From Gemmata sp. (lineage in GTDB: Bacteria; Planctomycetota; Planctomycetia; Gemmatales; Gemmataceae), in the NCBI GenBank assembly GCA_025055115.1, contig JANWYJ010000095.1:1-39708 (forward strand): a stretch of DNA of 39,708 bases, read 5' to 3'. A model generated the notes under the pieces. That model was not told the DNA's origin. It made no database searches and saw only the letters and a program-made list of their open reading frames with translations. Below, in pieces: positions 3,841-37,920 of this stretch (positions are counted from its first letter, which is position 1; each line of letters begins with the position of its first letter). The position numbers and the translations under genes are program-made.

Positions 3841-3975
3841 ACCGGTTGGGAACGCGCAAGCCACACAACCGATTGGGAACGCAAATTCACCTGATTTTGG
3901 TTGAAGTCGTAGGACGTTTGTTGAAGTCGTAGGACGTTTACCGTCGCCGCAAACCATACGACCGGTTGGGAACGC
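3841..3975. repeat. short repeats: 15-bp motif x3 and 20-bp perfect tandem
   Basis: The motif accgRttgggaacgc occurs at 3841, 3868 and 3961. Between the second and third copies, gttgaagtcgtaggacgttt is repeated perfectly head to tail at 3900-3919 and 3920-3939. The region belongs to the 797-bp gap 3770-4566, which has no convincing gene and is filled with successive unrelated repeat sets. Confidence 0.85.
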
Positions 3976-3976
3976 A

Positions 3977-4077
3977 AATTCAGCCACACGGAGCTGCCGG
4001 CCAACTTCCAGGCCAACCCGATTGGGCCGTCAGCCTTCTGAGAGCGTGAATTCAGCCACACGGGACTGCCAGCCAAC
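3977..4077. repeat. 29-bp direct repeat pair, 72-bp period
   Basis: Copies at 3977-4005 and 4049-4077 begin aattcagccacacgg and end gccaac with a few substitutions, separated by 43 bp. The second copy runs into the first copy of the next repeat set. Confidence 0.85.
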
Positions 4078-4252
4078 CCAATTGGGTATTCGGAATCAAC
4101 CGGAGCACAGACCTAGTCAACCCTGTTTTCACGGCCAATAACAACCAACCCAGTTGGGTGTTCGGACTCAACCGGAGCAGGCCGTCCGTTTGACAACGTT
4201 CCAGGGAGTGAACCAGGACAGCCCGGTGGGGTATTCGGAATCGACCGGAGCA
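4074..4252. repeat. 34-bp direct repeat, three copies, 72- and 73-bp periods
   Basis: Copies at 4074-4107, 4146-4179 and 4219-4252 share ttcggaMtcRaccggagca; the third differs most at its left end. Unique spacers are 38 and 39 bp. The first copy contains the 12-bp perfect palindrome acccaattgggt. Confidence 0.9.
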
Positions 4253-4304
4253 TCCGACCCGCGCGGTGTGTACTCCCCCCAGGCAACCCGAGAGTGTAGC
4301 CGCG

Positions 4305-4408
4305 TGGCAATGGTTCAGCCCACTGCGATCGTAACCATGAAGAAGAACCCCAAGCCGAGGACATTGACGTGTATGGCCGCATGGCAATGGTTCAGCCCAC
4401 TGCGATCG
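4305..4408. repeat. 27-bp perfect direct repeat pair, 77-bp period
   Basis: The sequence tggcaatggttcagcccact plus gcgatcg is identical at 4305-4331 and 4382-4408, with a 50-bp spacer. Confidence 0.9.
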
Positions 4409-10853: not shown

Positions 10854-10940
10854 GGGCCAAGCCGCAAGGACGTTTCATTCCCCAGCCCACTGACCGACCA
10901 CCGCGGCCTTGCGCCAGTCCTTCCAGGGCGGAACAAGGCC

Positions 10941-11048
10941 GCTGCCAAACCCGAACATTCCGCTGTCTTGGGCAACCCCGCTGACTCGGCGCAGTGTCAC
11001 TGTCGCACCGCTGCTGCAAAACCCGAGCAATCCCTTGTCTTGGGCAAC
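10941..11048. repeat. 36-bp direct repeat pair, 72-bp period
   Basis: Copies at 10941-10976 and 11013-11048 begin gctgcMaaacccga and end gtcttgggcaac, with about five differences, and are separated by a unique 36-bp spacer. They lie in the 234-bp gap between two convergent genes. Confidence 0.9.
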
Positions 11049-23849: not shown

Positions 23850-24092
23850 ATGGCGAAGGCCAAAGCGAAAACCCAAGAAAGCGTCGTTGCGGAAGACCCG
23901 CGCCGCCCCACGCCAGTTCGCCGCGACGGCCCCTATGTGCTGATGTTGTTCGTCACCTTGCTCGCCATCATCACCGGCACGGTCTTGATGTACTTAGACA
24001 CCGAAGAGTATGGCGGCAAAAGCCCTCCTAAGGAAACGGCACCCGAAGCCCGCCCCTTGGGCGGGCTGCCAAAAGCCAATCCGAACCCCTGA
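23850..24092 (+). CDS. 80-residue single-pass membrane protein (cluster gene 4)
   Basis: This encodes 80 residues from ATG at 23850, with AGGAG 8 nt upstream and only 34 nt after cluster gene 3. A Lys/Arg-rich cytoplasmic segment (1-26) is followed by one transmembrane helix (about 28-48, YVLMLFVTLLAIITGTVLMYL) and a short Pro-rich tail. No family is recognised. Its stop codon lies inside the first copy of a 30-bp direct repeat whose second copy is 73 bp downstream. Confidence 0.78.
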   Translation: MAKAKAKTQESVVAEDPRRPTPVRRDGPYVLMLFVTLLAIITGTVLMYLDTEEYGGKSPPKETAPEARPLGGLPKANPNP

Positions 24093-24183
24093 CGCGGATA
24101 TCGTCGTTCTATGACGACCTTATCGTCACGCGCCACCGGGGTGCCATTACCATCCAAACCCCTGACGTGGATATCGTCGTTCT
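24081..24183. repeat. 30-bp direct repeat pair, 73-bp period, overlapping a stop codon
   Basis: Copies at 24081-24110 and 24154-24183 differ at two bases (core acccctgacg, then ggatatcgtcgttct). The first includes the last codons and the TGA (24090-24092) of cluster gene 4. Spacer 43 bp. Confidence 0.92.
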
Positions 24184-24253
24184 GTGGCCAACGTCGTAAG
24201 TGCTGATACCTCAACGGCCTCGGTGCTTCACCGCGGCCGTGAGCGTTTCTTGA

Positions 24254-25228: not shown

Positions 25229-25270
25229 ACTTCGGGCCAGACGAGATGTCGTAATCCGCTGGCATACCCC

Positions 25271-25370
25271 GCCCTAGGTCCCAACCGGTCGTGTCTTGCG
25301 TCGATCGTCGCCTTGGCGGCGCAAAGAGAAAAAGGTTGATGCCCGCCTCATGCCCCAACCGGTCGCGTCT
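25271..25370. repeat. degenerate 26-bp direct repeat pair, 74-bp period
   Basis: Copies at 25271-25296 and 25345-25370 share ccaaccggtcgYgtct and diverge to the left. They open a 664-bp gap (25229-25892) that has no convincing gene and contains three successive repeat sets. Confidence 0.75.
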
Positions 25371-25394
25371 GTGGCCACGGCGACCGGTTGGCAC

Positions 25395-25485
25395 TTTTTT
25401 CAGCCCATCACCCGCATCAAAAGTCAGAACCGATCCGCTCTTTTTTCAGCCCACCACCCGCATCAAAAGCCAGAACCGATCCGCA
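25395..25485. repeat. 45-bp near-perfect tandem duplication, 46-bp period
   Basis: Copies at 25395-25439 and 25441-25485 share ttttttcagccca followed by cacccgcatcaaaag and cagaaccgatccgc, with few differences. Confidence 0.9.
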
Positions 25486-25577
25486 ACCCTAACCATAACC
25501 TGGAGAGCCTGTTTCCAAACACCGCAGCGGCCGAACGAACCGTGTTTTCGGGCGGTTGTCGGGTTGGGGAACGCCCC

Positions 25578-25763
25578 GTGGTTATCGTCCGTCGCCCGAC
25601 CGCCATGAAATCGGCCTTAAAAAGCGCAGCCAGCTCCTCATCGGTTATGAGTGGTTATCGTCCGTCGCCCCACAGCCGTGGTATCGGCCTTCATCTGGTG
25701 ATGCTTCTTCTCCTTCGGCATCAGGTGGTTATCGTCCGTCGCCCCACAGCCGTGGTATCGGCC
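25578..25763. repeat. CRISPR-like repeat: three 39-41-bp copies, 73- and 74-bp periods
   Basis: Copies at 25578-25618, 25651-25691 and 25725-25763 begin gtggttatcgtccgtcgccc. The second and third are identical over 39 bp; the first is degenerate in its right half. Unique spacers are 32 and 33 bp. The repeat contains the small inverted repeat ccacagccgtgg. No cas gene is nearby and no other array shares this repeat. Confidence 0.9.
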
Positions 25764-25892
25764 ACTCCGATGCTTGGCCTTGGTGTTCGTCGCTGGAAAC
25801 AGTGGCACTGGTTACTAATCATGACTGCGAGGGCCGGTGCAACAACCGGCTCGCTTGTGTCTGAACCCTTTCCACTTCAGGAGATGTCACCG

Positions 25893-26480
25893 ATGCCGGC
25901 TCAAGTGCAAAAAGAAGCCCCCGATTTCACCGCAGCCGCGGTGATCAATCGCACCATCGTCAACGATTACAAACTGTCCAGCAACCGCGGCAAATACGTC
26001 GTTCTGTTCTTCTATCCGCTCGACTTCACGTTCGTCTGCCCCACCGAAATCATTGCTTTCAGCGACCGGATTGCTGAATTCGAAAAACGGAACTGCCAGG
26101 TGATCGGCGTTTCGGTCGATAGTCAATATTCGCACCTGGCGTGGATCAACACGCCGCGCAAAGAAGGCGGCCTGGGCGAGCTGAAATACCCACTGGTAGC
26201 CGACCTCACTAAGAAAATCAGCGCCGATTACGGGGTACTGCTCGACTCGGGCGTTTCCCTGCGTGGCCTGTTCGTGATCGATAAAGAAGGCATAATCCGG
26301 GCCATCACGATTCACGATCTGCCCTTGGGCCGCAGCGTGGATGAAACCCTACGCGTTCTGGATGCTCTGCAACATTACGAAAAACATGGCGAGGTGTGCC
26401 CGGCCAACTGGAAGCCCGGCGAAGCCTCGATCGACACCAAAAACGCCAAAGCCTACTTCGAGAAAGTGGCCGCGAAGTAA
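25893..26480 (+). CDS. typical 2-Cys peroxiredoxin (AhpC/Prx1 type)
   Basis: This encodes 195 residues from ATG at 25893, with AGGAG 9 nt upstream; the frame stays open far upstream through repeat DNA, which I do not count. The peroxidatic cysteine is C49 in DFTFVCPTE and the resolving cysteine is C169 in GEVCPANW, both intact. [18 protein letters not shown] and the C-terminal helix ending EKVAAK fit the Prx1 subgroup, with normal length. It reduces hydrogen peroxide and organic hydroperoxides in the cytoplasm, using thioredoxin or a similar donor. No reductase gene is adjacent. Regulation is not evident. Confidence 0.95.
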
Positions 26481-26546: not shown

Positions 26547-26648
26547 CAGCCCCTGGCCGGCGCAGGGCCACGATGCCGACCCACCCATCAGCGCAGACTG
26601 GGCTTGCGCGGATAGCCGCCACAGCCCCTGGCTGGCGCAGGGCCACGA
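26547..26648. repeat. 27-bp direct repeat pair, 75-bp period
   Basis: Copies at 26547-26573 and 26622-26648 (cagcccctggcYggcgcagg, then gccacga) differ at one base. An inverted partial copy (ggccaggggctg) lies just upstream at about 26514. They sit between the convergent peroxiredoxin and NAD-fusion genes. Confidence 0.9.
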
Positions 26649-26687: not shown

Positions 26688-28922
26688 TCAAGTGCGAGCG
26701 TTTTCGACTTCCACGGGGGGAAACATCGACTGCAGCAATCGGCACGACAAATCAAACTGCGGTGTGAAGCCCAATTCGATCGCAGCAATCGAGCTGACGC
26801 GTACCTCCATCGACCGTACCGGGCCACTGGGGTGGCCATCGACAAACCCCCGGATCGGCCGCTTGCCGTTGTGATCGAGGCTGCTGATCGCCACCACCGC
26901 CGATTCGGGCAAGGTCACAGGCCGCCAGAAGCGCGGCAGAAAGACATTCGAACCGGCCAGCGTCAGCACCGGAGCCGTCAGAGGAACGGGTGTTGCTCCC
27001 ATCGCACGCGCATACGCACTGGAACCCGACGGTGTGGCGACTAGCAAACCATCGCCGACAATCCGTGGCACCTGTTCCCGACCATCCACACTCAAACGCA
27101 ACCACGCCGCTTGCCCGCTATCTCGTTCCACCCACGCATCAGCACACGCCAACGACCGCAACGACTTGCCATCGGGGAGTTCGCTATCCACCCGGAGCAT
27201 GGGCATGCGATACAGCACCAATTCGGTGCCGTCGAGTTCGTCGGGTAACCATTCATTCATGAGAAAGCCCAGTGTGCCGGCGTTCAGACCAATGAACGGC
27301 AAACGCAACCGCCAATGGGTGCGAATGGCATTGAGCATCGTGCCATCGCCGCCCAGAACGAGAATATGCGTGGGGTCGGCAGCTTCGTAACGGCGGAAAT
27401 GTTCGGCCAAGAGCCGGGCTTTGTCGTTGCGCTCGTCAAAAACGATGTGGAAGCGCGGATTGCGCAGGCGAACGCGGGTTTCCCGGGGTGAGGGCTTTCC
27501 TGAGAACAACCCGTACCGCTGAATATACGTTTCGACCGCTTCGGGTACGTCGGGATAGGCCCGGCCCCCTTGGAAGACCCGCAAGCGAATATCGCATGTG
27601 GGAATGTGGCCATCCACGGCCAGCAATTGGCACTGTTGGGGTAAATCCGCCGCCGACGGAACACGCTCGCTGGGGTGCAGCACCACAAAGCGGGAAGCCA
27701 TCCACATATCACCCCCGCATTCCCACTTGGTGTGAATGGTGGAAGCGCCGCGGCAGCCGCCGTCAATGAATTCATGTGAAACGACATGCCACACTTCGCC
27801 GTGGTGGGCCAGCAGATCGTCGAAGACCACCGGGGGCGTGAACACGCCATCGTCGAGATCGGTCAGATCCACCGTAACCCCCGGAATATCACGAAAAGCC
27901 AGATCGGCCATCACCGCCCGGTGAATGGGGGCTGCATGTTCCACTTCGTCGTGATCTGGACGAGGGCCGACTGGCCGAACAATCACCTCATCGAAACCTC
28001 GCTCGCGAAGGGCCTGCACTACGCGGCGGTGGAAGGTTGTGGGTGGGTCGAAACTCCCTGTGAAGATGGCGACTTTGCGCCGTTTGAGGGGCACGATTTG
28101 TTCACGCCAGTGGGGCCGTGCGGCGGTATGGGCCAGGATCACTGCGGCTGCGTCGAGTTGTTGCAAGCTCAGCAGAGCCGCCAGACCATCTCCAACCGGG
28201 TAAGGGCCATCGCCGAGGGTCTCCACGGCCAGCACCTGGGCCTGTGTGCCCGGTTGAAGTGCTTCCGCGATTCGCACCGCGGCCTGGGCGAATGGACCGC
28301 AGACCAGCACCGTCAGCTTCCGCGATACCGCATGGGCGACGAAGCCGGCGGCGGCAGCCAGGTCGGCCGTACCGTGTTCAGCCCAGCGGTCGATCGACCA
28401 GTTATCGCAGGAGAGGTCGGTGGGCAGCCTCTCGTGAAGCTGCTGGGCCACTCGGATCGCGTTGGCCCCAAGGCCATCAACGGTCACTAGCTGCAAGCGT
28501 TCTTGCACGGCCCGCTCGGCTTCGTCCTGGCCGATGCGGTAGGCTTCCGCAAAGGTCTTCTCGGGCCGAAGATCGGCTCGGGAGGAGGTGCGGCGGCAGC
28601 GGTAGTGGGCTGTTTCCCGTAGCGGATCGCACAGTGAACCCACATCCACCACCAGCCAGTCGGTCTGGGTCGCCTTCGCCAGAACCGCGGTCGCAGAGCG
28701 GCCCGTGACCATTTCGTGAATCAGCGGTTCCAAAAGGCTGTCTTCGCCCGGCTCGTGATTGGCCGCGAAAAGAACCAATCGACGCGGACGGACGACCGGT
28801 GTGAGCGTGTTCTGGACTTCGCAGAGCCGGACCGCCAGCGGATCGAGCGCGCCGAGTCCCGACGAAGGCCCCGCGAGCGCATCCAGACGCCGGCGAATGT
28901 CGGCTGATGAAATCGAGCGCAT
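26688..28922 (-). CDS. three-domain NAD metabolism fusion: CobT-like, NadD-like nucleotidyltransferase, NAD kinase
   Basis: This encodes 744 residues in one uninterrupted frame from ATG at 28922 (GGGTGG upstream). Residues about 1-275 resemble CobT: LDALAGPSSGLGALDPLAVRL, VVDVG (91-95), GTADLAAAAGFVAHAV (184-199) and VLVCGPFAQAA follow the CobT order, but the catalytic GEGTGA region appears as GDGLAA (244-249). Residues about 283-475 are a NadD-like adenylyltransferase: GSFDPPTTFH (289-298) with the T/H-x-x-H ATP motif, and PTCDIR (441-446) as the late ST-x-IR-type motif. Residues about 485-735 are NAD kinase: GGDGTMLNAI (524-533), GLNAGTLGFL (545-554) and DGLLVATPSGSSAY (624-637). Nicotinate mononucleotide links the first two domains; NadK makes NADP. 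The NadK domain is the surest call; the CobT-like assignment is from recalled motifs. Confidence 0.85.
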   Translation of the reverse strand: MRSISSADIRRRLDALAGPSSGLGALDPLAVRLCEVQNTLTPVVRPRRLVLFAANHEPGEDSLLEPLIHEMVTGRSATAVLAKATQTDWLVVDVGSLCDPLRETAHYRCRRTSSRADLRPEKTFAEAYRIGQDEAERAVQERLQLVTVDGLGANAIRVAQQLHERLPTDLSCDNWSIDRWAEHGTADLAAAAGFVAHAVSRKLTVLVCGPFAQAAVRIAEALQPGTQAQVLAVETLGDGPYPVGDGLAALLSLQQLDAAAVILAHTAARPHWREQIVPLKRRKVAIFTGSFDPPTTFHRRVVQALRERGFDEVIVRPVGPRPDHDEVEHAAPIHRAVMADLAFRDIPGVTVDLTDLDDGVFTPPVVFDDLLAHHGEVWHVVSHEFIDGGCRGASTIHTKWECGGDMWMASRFVVLHPSERVPSAADLPQQCQLLAVDGHIPTCDIRLRVFQGGRAYPDVPEAVETYIQRYGLFSGKPSPRETRVRLRNPRFHIVFDERNDKARLLAEHFRRYEAADPTHILVLGGDGTMLNAIRTHWRLRLPFIGLNAGTLGFLMNEWLPDELDGTELVLYRMPMLRVDSELPDGKSLRSLACADAWVERDSGQAAWLRLSVDGREQVPRIVGDGLLVATPSGSSAYARAMGATPVPLTAPVLTLAGSNVFLPRFWRPVTLPESAVVAISSLDHNGKRPIRGFVDGHPSGPVRSMEVRVSSIAAIELGFTPQFDLSCRLLQSMFPPVEVENART

Positions 28923-29040: not shown

Positions 29041-29145
29041 GTGGTGCGAACAGGCAGAACCTGTCATGCCGCTGGGCAAGTTGTCGGGCAATGCTGTTCA
29101 TTTCGCTGTCGCTGTGGTGTGAACAGGCAGAACCTGTCACGCCGC
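29041..29145. repeat. 33-bp direct repeat pair, 72-bp period, with internal hairpin
   Basis: Copies at 29041-29073 and 29113-29145 differ at two bases. Each contains acaggcagaacctgt, a 5-bp stem around cagaa. They lie in the gap 28923-29186 downstream of the sulfotransferase gene and upstream of the NAD-fusion gene (both minus strand). Confidence 0.92.
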
Positions 29146-29186
29146 TAAAGACAAGCATTCCGGGACAACGCAGCCCCGCGGACAAG

Positions 29187-30185
29187 TTAGGGATTCAGAA
29201 GGCCCAATTGGACGGCCACTCGGTGAACCAGTTTCCAACGCCGTTGCGTGTTGGTCGTGCGGCGTGACCGCTCAAGATCCCGTTCGAGCCGCTGAATGAT
29301 GGCCAGACGTTCATCACAGCTCCGCGTCAGCTCCGCGATCACAGCGAGACGCTGGGTACAAGCCGCATCAAGGCGCTGAATTTCCGCCAATCGCTGATCG
29401 GCAATGCGTTGCAATTGCTGATGACGATGCACCAGTTGCCGTGTGAATTGCAGCATCCGTTCTTCATCACAACCGACTGGATAGGCGTTGGCGTCCACAT
29501 CGGCTGGGGTCGCATACCCCAACTGGATCAACAGTGCGCCATGCAGGGTATAAAACTGCCGCAGGCGGACCTCTGTCCAGAATTCATCCGGCTGCCAGGT
29601 GGGCCGACCGTGTCCGTAAAAGGTGGGCGTTAGCTTCCGGAGCTGGGCTTGCGGATTGACCCAGGGATGGACCGGTCCCGAGTAGCCGAGGAACTCTTGC
29701 AGTTGCCGCAGCAGGTTCGCATTGGCGTTGAGCAGCTCTTCAAAGCGAACGACGAATGTCGGTCCCCGGGACGCAGCGCACCACGCATGGTAATGACTGG
29801 ACCAATCCCCATACGGATGGTCGCCGAGTAAGAGCGATTCAAACGTTGATTCGCCCGGGTGGAATGTGTCCTGAAACTTCACGAAGCTCTGCAGGGCCAA
29901 GCGGCCATCGCGCACAACGTAAATGGCTTTGTTGTTATCCCGTGGTAATTGATGGGACTTGATCAGCACCAGATCGGCACTTGTGTGTGCCTGCTGGTAG
30001 AACTCCTCGGGGTTGCCATTGACGAAGTAACTGCCGTAGTAGTCCTCACGCGCCGCATCGTGGTTGCGCAGATGCTCGGGAACCGGTTCGAGTCCTTCAC
30101 ATGAGTTAAGGTTGAAGCAGCATTTCAACACTTGTCGCAACAGCGTATTACCCGAGCGCGGATAAGAAGCCAGCCAGACGATCAT
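29187..30185 (-). CDS. sulfotransferase-domain protein with C-terminal coiled-coil repeats
   Basis: This encodes 332 residues from ATG at 30185, with AAGGAG 5 nt upstream. The PAPS-binding 5-prime phosphosulfate loop is SYPRSGNT (7-14) and the 3-prime phosphate motif is YVVRDGR (89-95); EEFYQQAH and FVVRFEELL follow sulfotransferase order. The enzyme would transfer sulfate from PAPS to a carbohydrate, lipid or protein hydroxyl. After the domain, residues 264-305 are three 14-residue repeats of the form QRLAxIxxLxxxCx, a short coiled coil, and then a basic end. Substrate unknown. It stands alone between repeat-rich gaps. Confidence 0.88.
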   Translation of the reverse strand: MIVWLASYPRSGNTLLRQVLKCCFNLNSCEGLEPVPEHLRNHDAAREDYYGSYFVNGNPEEFYQQAHTSADLVLIKSHQLPRDNNKAIYVVRDGRLALQSFVKFQDTFHPGESTFESLLLGDHPYGDWSSHYHAWCAASRGPTFVVRFEELLNANANLLRQLQEFLGYSGPVHPWVNPQAQLRKLTPTFYGHGRPTWQPDEFWTEVRLRQFYTLHGALLIQLGYATPADVDANAYPVGCDEERMLQFTRQLVHRHQQLQRIADQRLAEIQRLDAACTQRLAVIAELTRSCDERLAIIQRLERDLERSRRTTNTQRRWKLVHRVAVQLGLLNP

Positions 30186-30662: not shown

Positions 30663-30771
30663 GTGCGCCAGAAGACTGTGAGCCACAATGAGCTGCAACG
30701 ACATGGGCTGTTGGTATTGACGCTGTCCATCTTCAGTGCGCCAGAAGACTGTGAGCCACAATGAGCTGCAA
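30663..30771. repeat. 36-bp perfect direct repeat pair with 37-bp spacer, 73-bp period
   Basis: The copies at 30663-30698 and 30736-30771 are identical (core gactgtgagccacaatgagc). The 37-bp spacer is unique. The second copy ends 14 bp before the ATG of the DUF1559 gene, so the repeat occupies its leader. Confidence 0.95.
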
Positions 30772-32001: not shown

Positions 32002-32160
32002 TGCCGCGAAATCGTCATTTCCGGTCGCACCAGTCGCTAGGAGGTGGTTCTCGTGGACTACGCGGATGCCTCTCGGGAGGATCGTGGGCCTCAGGCCGAC
32101 CGGCGGATGATGACAATTGCGACCTGTGCCGGGCATCCCGCCCGCCGCGCGGGCCGCCGT

Positions 32161-32270
32161 GTTGCAGAACCTCATCGGGCACTCACGATGAGCTGGGATG
32201 CACGAAACGTTCTCATCCCACCGTATTCGAAGGTGTTGAAGAACCTCATCGGGTATCCATGATGAGCTGG
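32161..32270. repeat. 36-bp direct repeat pair, 74-bp period, with internal hairpin
   Basis: Copies at 32161-32196 and 32235-32270 share gaacctcatcggg and gatgagctgg. Both contain the inverted repeat ctcatc/gatgag around a 10-nt loop, and the loop bases are the variable ones, consistent with stem conservation. Spacer 38 bp. Confidence 0.9.
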
Positions 32271-32313
32271 CTCCAACACTCCACCGCGAACCGGTGAATC
32301 GTTCTACAATGGT

Positions 32314-32424
32314 GCCACGGGACCCCCCAACGCGGGAAGCATACGAAGCTGCCACGGGACCCCCCAACTCGGGAAGCATACGAAGCTGCCACAGGAACAA
32401 GCCCCCAACTCAGGAAACATACGG
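32314..32424. repeat. 37-bp tandem array of three units ending at the ADH start codon
   Basis: Units at 32314-32350, 32351-32387 and 32388-32424 share gccacRggaMc, cccccaac and catacg. The third, most diverged, ends immediately before the ATG at 32425 and contains the ribosome binding site caggaaa; the first two carry cgggaagcatacg at the same place. Confidence 0.92.
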
Positions 32425-33905: not shown

Positions 33906-34077
33906 GCCCTCGGCCAGCTCCCACGGACCATTGAGGAAACGCCAACGACGGGGCGACGGTTACTCGTCGCCTTCATCGGCCCTCGGCCAGCTCCCACGGA
34001 CCATTAAGGAAACGCCAAAGCCGCAGAATAAACTTCGTCAGGTGGCGTTGCCGCCCTCGGCCAGCTCCCACGGACCC
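33906..34077. repeat. CRISPR-like repeat: 39-bp copies, 73- and 74-bp periods
   Basis: Copies at 33906-33944 and 33979-34017 differ at one base (gccctcggccagctcccacg, then gaccatt, aggaaacgcca); a third, 34053-34077, keeps only the left 25 bp. Spacers are 34 and 35 bp. The first and third copies also share the leader gtggcgttgcc directly to their left. Confidence 0.92.
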
Positions 34078-34316: not shown

Positions 34317-34430
34317 GCTGCCCCCAGCCACAATGGTGAAGGCGCTTCGGTCGATCGTTATCCTGAGCCTGGTATGACGGTCATTTCTTGCTGCCCCCAG
34401 CCACAATGGTGAAGGCGCTTCGGTCGATCG
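34317..34430. repeat. 41-bp perfect direct repeat pair, 73-bp period
   Basis: Identical copies at 34317-34357 and 34390-34430 (core ccccagccacaatggtgaag) are separated by a unique 32-bp spacer. Confidence 0.95.
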
Positions 34431-34569
34431 GTCGTCTGGCATGTTGGCCGTTCGATCGGTCGATCGGTCGTCTGGCATGTTGGCCGTTCGAAACGCTTTT
34501 AGCGAAAAGGTGCTGTTGTTCTGGCCCGAGCGCTTCGGTCGATGGGTCGTCTGGCACGTTGGCCGTTCG
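34426..34569. repeat. 36-bp tandem pair plus a displaced third copy
   Basis: gatcggtcgtctggcatgtt and the following ggccgttcg occur at 34426 and 34462 (36-bp period) and again with two changes at 34541. A 19-bp unit (gggggtcgtcgctatccac) is then repeated at 34575 and 34594. From 34613 to 34774 nothing is recognised apart from the PiT gene leader. Confidence 0.9.
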
Positions 34570-37627: not shown

Positions 37628-37846
37628 GCCCCCGGCGCGGCGACACAGCACGCCACCCGCCGATGCACCCCAGGAAAACGCCTCACAGAAACAAAACCAC
37701 CGCACCAGGAAAATCGTTTCGATCTTCCCAATTGCAGCCCAGTCACGAACTGTTGGGTAGGTACGTTGGTGTCTCCATCACCGTGGTGAAAATATTGGAT
37801 GGAATGTGGATTTAGCTCTCTGGTACTCATCAGTTGGGCGGATATT

Positions 37847-37920
37847 CGTGAAGGGCCAAGACCAGCCCATGGAGGCATTATGTCGATAAGGGCCAAGACC
37901 AGCCTATGGAGGAATTATGT
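37847..37920. repeat. 37-bp tandem duplication
   Basis: Units at 37847-37883 and 37884-37920 share aagggccaagaccagcc, atggagg and attatgtcga, with four or five differences. The 455-bp gap 37628-38082 contains no other feature I can support. Confidence 0.92.

Follow-up and report, generated by a model that had tools for sequence, protein, structure and literature searches.

What does an NAD (nicotinamide adenine dinucleotide) kinase do with two further domains in front of it, one of them related to an enzyme of vitamin B12 assembly? The question is raised by a gene of Gemmata sp. (assembly GCA_025055115.1, contig JANWYJ010000095.1) within a stretch of 39,708 nucleotides, analyzed as a whole and called the window here. 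On its minus strand, from 28922 down to 26688, a single uninterrupted frame of 744 residues joins a CobT-like domain, a NadD-like domain, and an NAD kinase domain. We favor, with some reserve, the reading that this protein acts as the cell's NAD kinase and that the two degenerate nicotinate-nucleotide domains serve it as regulators or scaffold. Our search of the open-access literature, mostly at title and abstract level and with most subscription papers outside it, found no description of a CobT-NadD-NadK fusion.

Three Folds in One Frame

An earlier note, made from the sequence alone, had reported the frame without its strand and had assigned the three domains. Both statements are borne out, and the layout is as follows.

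26688..28922, minus strand: whole CobT-like / NadD-like / NadK frame, 744 amino acids, with the ATG at 28922 and the stop at 26688-26690; the three-part frame recurs in other genomes of the genus
28098..28922, minus strand: CobT-like domain, residues 1-275, degenerate
27492..28079, minus strand: NadD-like domain with the fold of nicotinamide or nicotinate mononucleotide adenylyltransferases (NMNAT), residues 282-477
26718..27455, minus strand: NAD kinase domain, residues 490-735, the sole PF01513 match over the cut-off in its own genome

A phmmer search of the whole protein against solved structures matched NadK best (E 2.8e-11), followed by NadD (3.6e-8) and, weakly, CobT (0.01). The full-length AlphaFold2 model, built from 24 aligned rows, has a mean predicted local distance difference test score (pLDDT) of 84.3 and a predicted template modeling score (pTM) of 0.62; because of the latter value, the mutual arrangement of the three domains in this model is not settled. 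Foldseek with the whole model listed NAD kinases alone among its best 50 matches, and the NadD-like part was therefore modeled separately. Profile searches and fold matches together recover the CobT, NMNAT, and NadK folds, each in its own third of the protein.

A frame of this kind might result from a frameshift, a misassembly, or a chimera of separate genes, and CobT and NadD-NadK do lie on different contigs or in different frames in the drafts G299, G303, G304, and G309. This explanation, which the earlier note had named as a danger, is refuted by recurrence: in 9 of the 19 genomes of the genus (the own genome, G310, G311, G296, G305, G295, G301, G294, and G297), a complete frame encodes all three parts, and two of the nine, G295 and G301, are single-contig assemblies. 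In G308 the frame is cut inside NadK by the contig end, and in G299, G300, and G304 the parts lie on different contigs or one is present as a fragment.

The Only Detectable NAD Kinase

Two short motifs matter for the C-terminal domain.

27342..27353, minus strand: residues 524-527, GGDG, catalytic motif of NAD kinases
27138..27143, minus strand: residues 594-595 (A-D), at the position of the short NE/D motif, its Asn lost

The domain scores 37.2 bits with Pfam PF01513 (cut-off 25.5), and its best NCBIfam match is the NAD kinase model NF003406, at 143 bits over residues 495-734 and under the cut-off of 211. The NadK C-terminal profile PF20143 gives 15.5 bits, under its cut-off of 23.7; at E 0.001 it matched nothing in the own genome, the fusion included, and hence it was not used for claims of absence. 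In the full model, residues 487-739 superpose on the NadK structure 7qvs_A with a Z-score of 26.0 (root-mean-square deviation, rmsd, 3.2; 249 residues aligned). NadD and NadK motifs were counted in an alignment of 29 rows, and GGDG is retained in all of them. Conserved region II, given as Thr-200 and Tyr-202 of Ppnk, keeps its Tyr in 28/28 readable rows, and the Thr position reads as Ser in Gemmata-type rows, a conservative change. The Asn of NE/D is replaced by A, G, S, or C in all 18 readable Gemmata-type rows and present in nine of the ten others; three further loci fit this pattern, with Asn in L169 and L170 and Ser in L172. PMC8553519 describes three motifs shared by all NAD kinases and calls the NE/D Asn vital in Mycobacterium tuberculosis Ppnk. 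Since this Asn is missing, we do not file the domain as a canonical NAD kinase; it is NAD-kinase-like in fold and in genomic role. It resembles the NF003406/PRK04761 type in GGDG, region II Tyr, and fold, and differs from it in its low score, the lost Asn, and the two domains upstream.

The PF01513 profile, which found a match in 14/14 control genomes, was run together with profiles for PF02277 (CobT), CobS, and CobU on 59 genomes, namely the 19 of the genus and 40 others. Over the cut-off, the fusion is the sole match in the own genome; two weak matches, considered as a hidden second NadK, were rejected, one being an alcohol dehydrogenase and the other a DAGK/YegS lipid kinase. The fused protein is likewise the sole match in 18 of the 19 genomes of the genus, and the search found none in the remaining one, G300, which is 82% complete. 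Most of the other 40 genomes have a separate kinase scoring 53-68 bits; G318 and G326 have the NadD-NadK protein only, G321 and G338 have both, and PF01513 found no match in G317 and G328. A standalone relative of the fused kinase, 45-46% identical to it, is encoded in g252. Two points go beyond what the earlier note had proposed: the NadK part is the sole kinase found in these genomes, and NadD-NadK is more widespread without CobT than with it. We infer that the C-terminal domain would phosphorylate NAD to its phosphate NADP, which nothing else detectable in the genome does.

An NMNAT Fold with an Altered Motif

The middle domain carries one telling motif.

28029..28058, minus strand: residues 289-298, GSFDPPTTFH, altered T/HxGH nucleotidyltransferase motif

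Its profile scores are low: 16.7 bits with PF01467 (cut-off 21) and 37.8 bits over residues 286-472 with the NadD model TIGR00482 (cut-off 112), which is also under its cut-off in eight of nine relatives, those for which a score was listed. The fold is clear. Modeled alone from 27 rows, the middle part reaches a pLDDT of 93.8 and adopts the NMNAT fold, matching NadDs with Z up to 21.1 (4ymi_A, rmsd 2.2, 173 aligned) and phosphopantetheine adenylyltransferases with Z 15.2-15.7. None of the 29 rows has the first His of T/HxGH, its place being taken by T in 21 and by G, S, or A in 8; the second is retained in 28. The position of Escherichia coli NadD Asp-109 is acidic in 28/29 rows, being Glu in the 14 triple rows, that is, those with all three domains; every row has the SSTxIR Arg, and the loop of E. 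coli NadD Arg-46 has no clear alignment to this domain. Compared with NadD, the fused domain thus shares the fold, the second His, the acidic Asp-109 position, and the SSTxIR Arg, and differs in the lost first His, the low TIGR00482 score, and its coexistence with a canonical NadD, which is found over the cut-off in 19/19 genomes of the genus. Since the motif residues are partly kept and the first His is lost, catalysis by this domain appears possible and not assured.

These data bear on the idea of a working two-step enzyme, in which an active adenylyltransferase using nicotinamide mononucleotide (NMN), or nicotinate mononucleotide (NaMN), passes its product to the kinase, from NMN to NAD to NADP, with the CobT piece as a scaffold. 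The high model confidence of the NMNAT fold speaks for it, as do the retained second His, the acidic Asp-109 position, the invariant Arg, and the Thr found at the first position in 21 rows, a residue admitted by the motif as written T/HXGH (PMC1249556); so does a ratio of nonsynonymous to synonymous substitution (dN/dS) of 0.06-0.20 in the six pairs, of seven, in which it could be computed for this domain. Against this stand the scores under the TIGR00482 cut-off in the window protein and in the eight relatives, of nine, with a listed score, the first His gone throughout, with G, S, or A in eight rows, and the Glu in place of Asp-109 in the triple rows. Moreover, because a canonical NadD is present in every genome of the genus, the activity is not needed for NAD, and the fused domain is an extra. 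We therefore regard the two-step enzyme as doubtful. The suggestion in the earlier note that the order of domains is metabolically sensible was not borne out, given the canonical NadD in all genomes and the His lost from the fused domain. CobT is in any case not a step of NAD synthesis.

On the preferred reading, regulators or scaffold of the kinase, the NadD-like domain is an NMNAT fold that has kept most but not all of its catalytic motif and is joined to NadK outside the genus too. Because solved NadDs carry bound NADP (by structure titles, 4ymi, 4s1o, and others), feedback by NADP through this domain is a reasonable guess, and no more.

A CobT Domain Outside Cobamide Synthesis

Within the first domain, three sites stand out.

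28728..28769, minus strand: residues 52-65, site of a deleted 7-residue loop (GVSxYP/GVSxWP or similar in CobT), gone in 10/10 fused rows and kept in 8/8 standalone CobTs
28461..28478, minus strand: residues 149-154, DGLGAN replacing the GEMGIGN motif; by alignment, the position of CobT E174 is G150
28176..28193, minus strand: residues 244-249, GDGLAA, with D245 aligned to the CobT general base E317

PF02277 detects the domain at 77.3 bits (cut-off 22.6), and profile searches place the CobT-like stretch between residues 6 and about 270; the NCBIfam CobT models give 57-62 bits over residues 6-152, under their cut-offs of 306-319. In the full model, residues 3-274 match Thermus CobT 1wx1_A (rmsd 3.2, 264 aligned) and residues 2-276 match ArsAB 4hdk_B (rmsd 3.1, 263 aligned), both with Z 26.1, so that the comparison does not tell which is nearer.

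CobT motifs were counted in 18 aligned rows, 10 from fused proteins and 8 from standalone CobTs, with K213 and E317 located by counting along the alignment to a CobT chain. Four segments present in 8/8 standalone CobTs, namely the GVSxYP loop, the GEMGIGN motif, the K213 segment, and the AHxSxExGH loop, are lost in 10/10 fused rows. The titles of solved CobT variants (E174A, E317A, and S80Y/Q88M/L175M) point to the same sites as the lost segments. From these titles and from CobT structures, we take the lost segments to be those that bind the substrates dimethylbenzimidazole (DMB) and NaMN in CobT. Three things are found throughout the fused rows (10/10): the DVG motif, an acidic residue at the E317 position, which is D in four rows, the window protein among them, and E in six, and a new invariant Asp adjoining the former E174 position. 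The LG flanking E317 is gone in most.

In Salmonella CobT, E317 is the general base (PMC9561151). An exchange of E for D there was considered as a mark of lost CobT function and rejected, E being retained in six of the ten fused rows. The earlier note had argued from GDGLAA in place of GEGTGA that the domain does not assemble cobamides; the alignment agrees with the substitution, and as a reason it is weak for the same counts. The conclusion itself stands on other evidence. A fused CobT piece, whole or as a fragment, is found by PF02277 in 15 of the 19 genomes of the genus, and a standalone CobT (355-429 bits) in 7/59 genomes. CobS occurs in 8/59, that is, in all seven with a standalone CobT plus G319, and the profile search found it in none of the 15 genomes with a fused piece. 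Two members of the genus with complete CobT and CobS, G302 and G306, are without the fused CobT piece. The profile for CobU finds nothing over its cut-off in the same 15 genomes and matches in 4/59 overall, all four among the seven with a standalone CobT; eight genomes have matches under the cut-off. Thus, the loss of four segments in 10/10 fused rows and the absence of CobS from 15/15 genomes strongly support that the fused CobT-like part does not make cobamides, and a part in cobamide assembly was rejected on the latter count. As a separate observation, G319 encodes CobS (G319:C1:5715493-5716212) and yields no CobT match to PF02277, which hints that the base is activated by another route or that a gene is missing.

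Might the domain still transfer phosphoribosyl groups, to an altered acceptor or from an altered donor? The acidic general-base position and the new Asp beside the old E174 position, each invariant in character, would suit such an enzyme, and MjCobT is proposed to use another base, Asp 52 (PMC9561151). With the K213 segment, the AHxSxExGH loop, and the GVSxYP loop deleted in every fused row and no CobS found in the 15 genomes with a fused piece, we consider this improbable.

The CobT-like part thus shares with CobT and ArsAB the fold, the DVG motif, and the acidic E317 position, and differs from CobT in the four lost segments, the genomes without CobS, and the junction to NadD-NadK. A CobT domain within a fused polypeptide is also known from BluB/CobT2 of Propionibacterium freudenreichii; that protein, by the title of PMC4657239, serves active vitamin B12 production, in contrast to the Gemmata domain. 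Among NAD kinases, the bifunctional NADP phosphatase/NAD kinase (NF010678), known to us from its model name alone, likewise joins the kinase to another activity of NAD(P) metabolism, its partner being a phosphatase rather than NMNAT or CobT.

Spread, History, and Selection

Within the family, 33 of 95 genomes have matches spanning NadD and NadK, 18 of these genomes belonging to the genus; across the phylum, such matches occur in 2 of 293 other genomes sampled. CobT in line with NadD-NadK is confined to the genus among the matches listed, the CobT-like matches of other genera lying in separate frames; long frames before NadD in G397, G398, G385, and six other loci gave no CobT match. A wider alignment-based contig scan, of which 80 loci were kept, yields figures to be read as at least the number present and not as a census; a scan with a single sequence found nothing. 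NadD-NadK also occurs, among the matches listed, in two Verrucomicrobia, one Gemmataceae metagenome-assembled genome (MAG), the SCN18 bacterium, and one Doudnabacteria MAG. In the last (L095:5001-6353, record titled Candidatus Doudnabacteria MAG), the SSTxIR motif is intact (GSSTTIR), and the locus may reflect a transfer or a mis-binned contig.

A tree was built from 29 rows. Its 14 triple rows, four of which (L041, L042, L046, and L047) are labeled triple from fragments or broken frames, form one side of a branch (support 93/92) among the NadD-NadK rows; their neighbors are the NadD-NadK rows of g217 and of the genus itself (97/96). The fused CobT parts form one side of a 100/100 branch against the eight standalone CobTs (midpoint root). 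It looks as if the CobT piece was captured once, in the Gemmata lineage. The two outgroup rows of the 29-row tree formed no clade, and it is therefore the wider distribution of the two-domain form that speaks for NadD-NadK having arisen first and CobT having been added later.

Selection was estimated as dN/dS with our own NG86 script for seven pairs, taking residues 1-230 as the CobT part, whose synonymous distances reach 0.5-1.2 and make the values rough. The ratio for NadK is 0.05-0.10 in all seven pairs. For NadD, the seventh pair, outside the range given above, is saturated. The CobT part, at 0.19-0.30 in five of the seven pairs, is under purifying selection, weaker than that on the kinase. 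The linker between CobT and NadD carries variable in-frame inserts (in L043 at about 1318-1502 and at the corresponding site in L044, L045, and L046; genomes G301, G294, G297, and G303), those of G301 and G303 being repeat-like, G-rich sequence.

A Probable Regulator or a Possible Tether

According to the reading we favor, the CobT domain, captured apparently once and stripped of its DMB and NaMN loops, has left cobamide synthesis, and the two front domains probably act as modules for ligand binding, oligomerization, or both, adjusting kinase activity to the available NaMN, NMN, or NAD(P). The earlier suggestion of a regulatory nicotinate-nucleotide function is, to this extent, a plausible inference.

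Alternatively, the CobT-like part could be a structural tether or dimerization unit only, binding no ligand. This would fit the substrate loops gone in every fused row, the variable linker inserts, a CobT dN/dS above that of NadK in each pair compared, and the broken CobT frames described below; according to PMC8553519, the NAD site of NAD kinases forms only through a dimer contact, and according to PMC9561151, MjCobT is a dimer. The purifying selection seen in five of the seven pairs and the DVG motif and acidic general-base position kept in all fused rows argue against it, and we think it rather unlikely.

Several observations weigh against regulation by the front domains of a working kinase. 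A single-base difference from G301 breaks the CobT frame of G303, and the CobT frame of G309 is broken twice; these may be assembly errors or a sign of dispensability. Four genomes of the genus, G298, G302, G306, and G307, have NadD-NadK only, with no CobT piece. In the two most distant pairs the CobT dN/dS rises to 0.44 and 0.50, at a dS of 1.1-1.2 that makes these values rough, and the constraint on this part could reflect folding or dimerization only. The absence of CobU says little about a cobamide role, because three of the seven genomes with standalone CobT and CobS (G302, G316, and G340) are also without a CobU match. The missing NE/D Asn is the main unexplained point and speaks against a plain canonical kinase. 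Within the favored reading itself, a pure scaffold would not need the acidic general-base position that all ten fused rows keep.

A bolder form of the favored reading would make the dead B12 enzyme an allosteric nicotinate-nucleotide sensor of the sole NAD kinase, with the NMNAT fold as a second sensor or as a means of product coupling, and with the kinase working without the NE/D Asn. We put this forward tentatively.

Surroundings of the Gene

The fusion gene is preceded on its own strand by a sulfotransferase-like gene (29187-30185); downstream of it, and convergent with it, lies an AhpC-type peroxiredoxin gene within the frame 25296-26480 (PF00578, 132 bits). Sulfotransferase-like and peroxiredoxin neighbors also flank the fusion gene in L036. 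There is no explanation of the fusion in these neighbors.

Independently of the gene, the window holds many differing families of short direct repeats of about 24-45 nucleotides in 2-3 copies, with a start-to-start spacing of 72-77 nucleotides, mostly 73 or 74. They lie at the following window positions.

3967-4252: short direct-repeat family
4294-4408: short direct-repeat family
10938-11048: short direct-repeat family
24079-24186: short direct-repeat family
25268-25763: short direct-repeat family
26547-26648: short direct-repeat family
29041-29146: short direct-repeat family
30663-30771: short direct-repeat family
32159-32270: short direct-repeat family
33906-34076: short direct-repeat family
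34317-34430: short direct-repeat family

Exact pairs of 14-mers at most 200 nucleotides apart peak at a distance of 73 (96 pairs), followed by 74 (38 pairs, tied with a distance of 28). Head-to-tail pairs of 36-37 nucleotides, half of the 73-nucleotide spacing, occur at 32305-32378, 34420-34491, and 37846-37919. The repeat unit varies from site to site, unlike that of a CRISPR array, and the 73/74-nucleotide spacing was not seen in nine other loci of 3-11 kb that were checked, four of them from the same genome.

Implications

An NAD kinase joined to an altered domain of NAD synthesis and to a worn-down domain of a B12 enzyme is an unusual arrangement, which probably serves to control the supply of NADP. 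Living genomes display the grades, from NadK alone through NadD-NadK to CobT-NadD-NadK, and the fusion offers a test case of a biosynthetic enzyme turning into an accessory domain. Automatic annotation could be misled into reporting a B12 gene in genomes without CobS. The missing NE/D Asn puts the requirements of an NAD kinase directly to the test. According to PMC5890153 and PMC6947874, no enzymes other than NAD kinases are known to make NADP(H) from NAD(H), so that the only NAD kinase found in the genus should be an essential control point.

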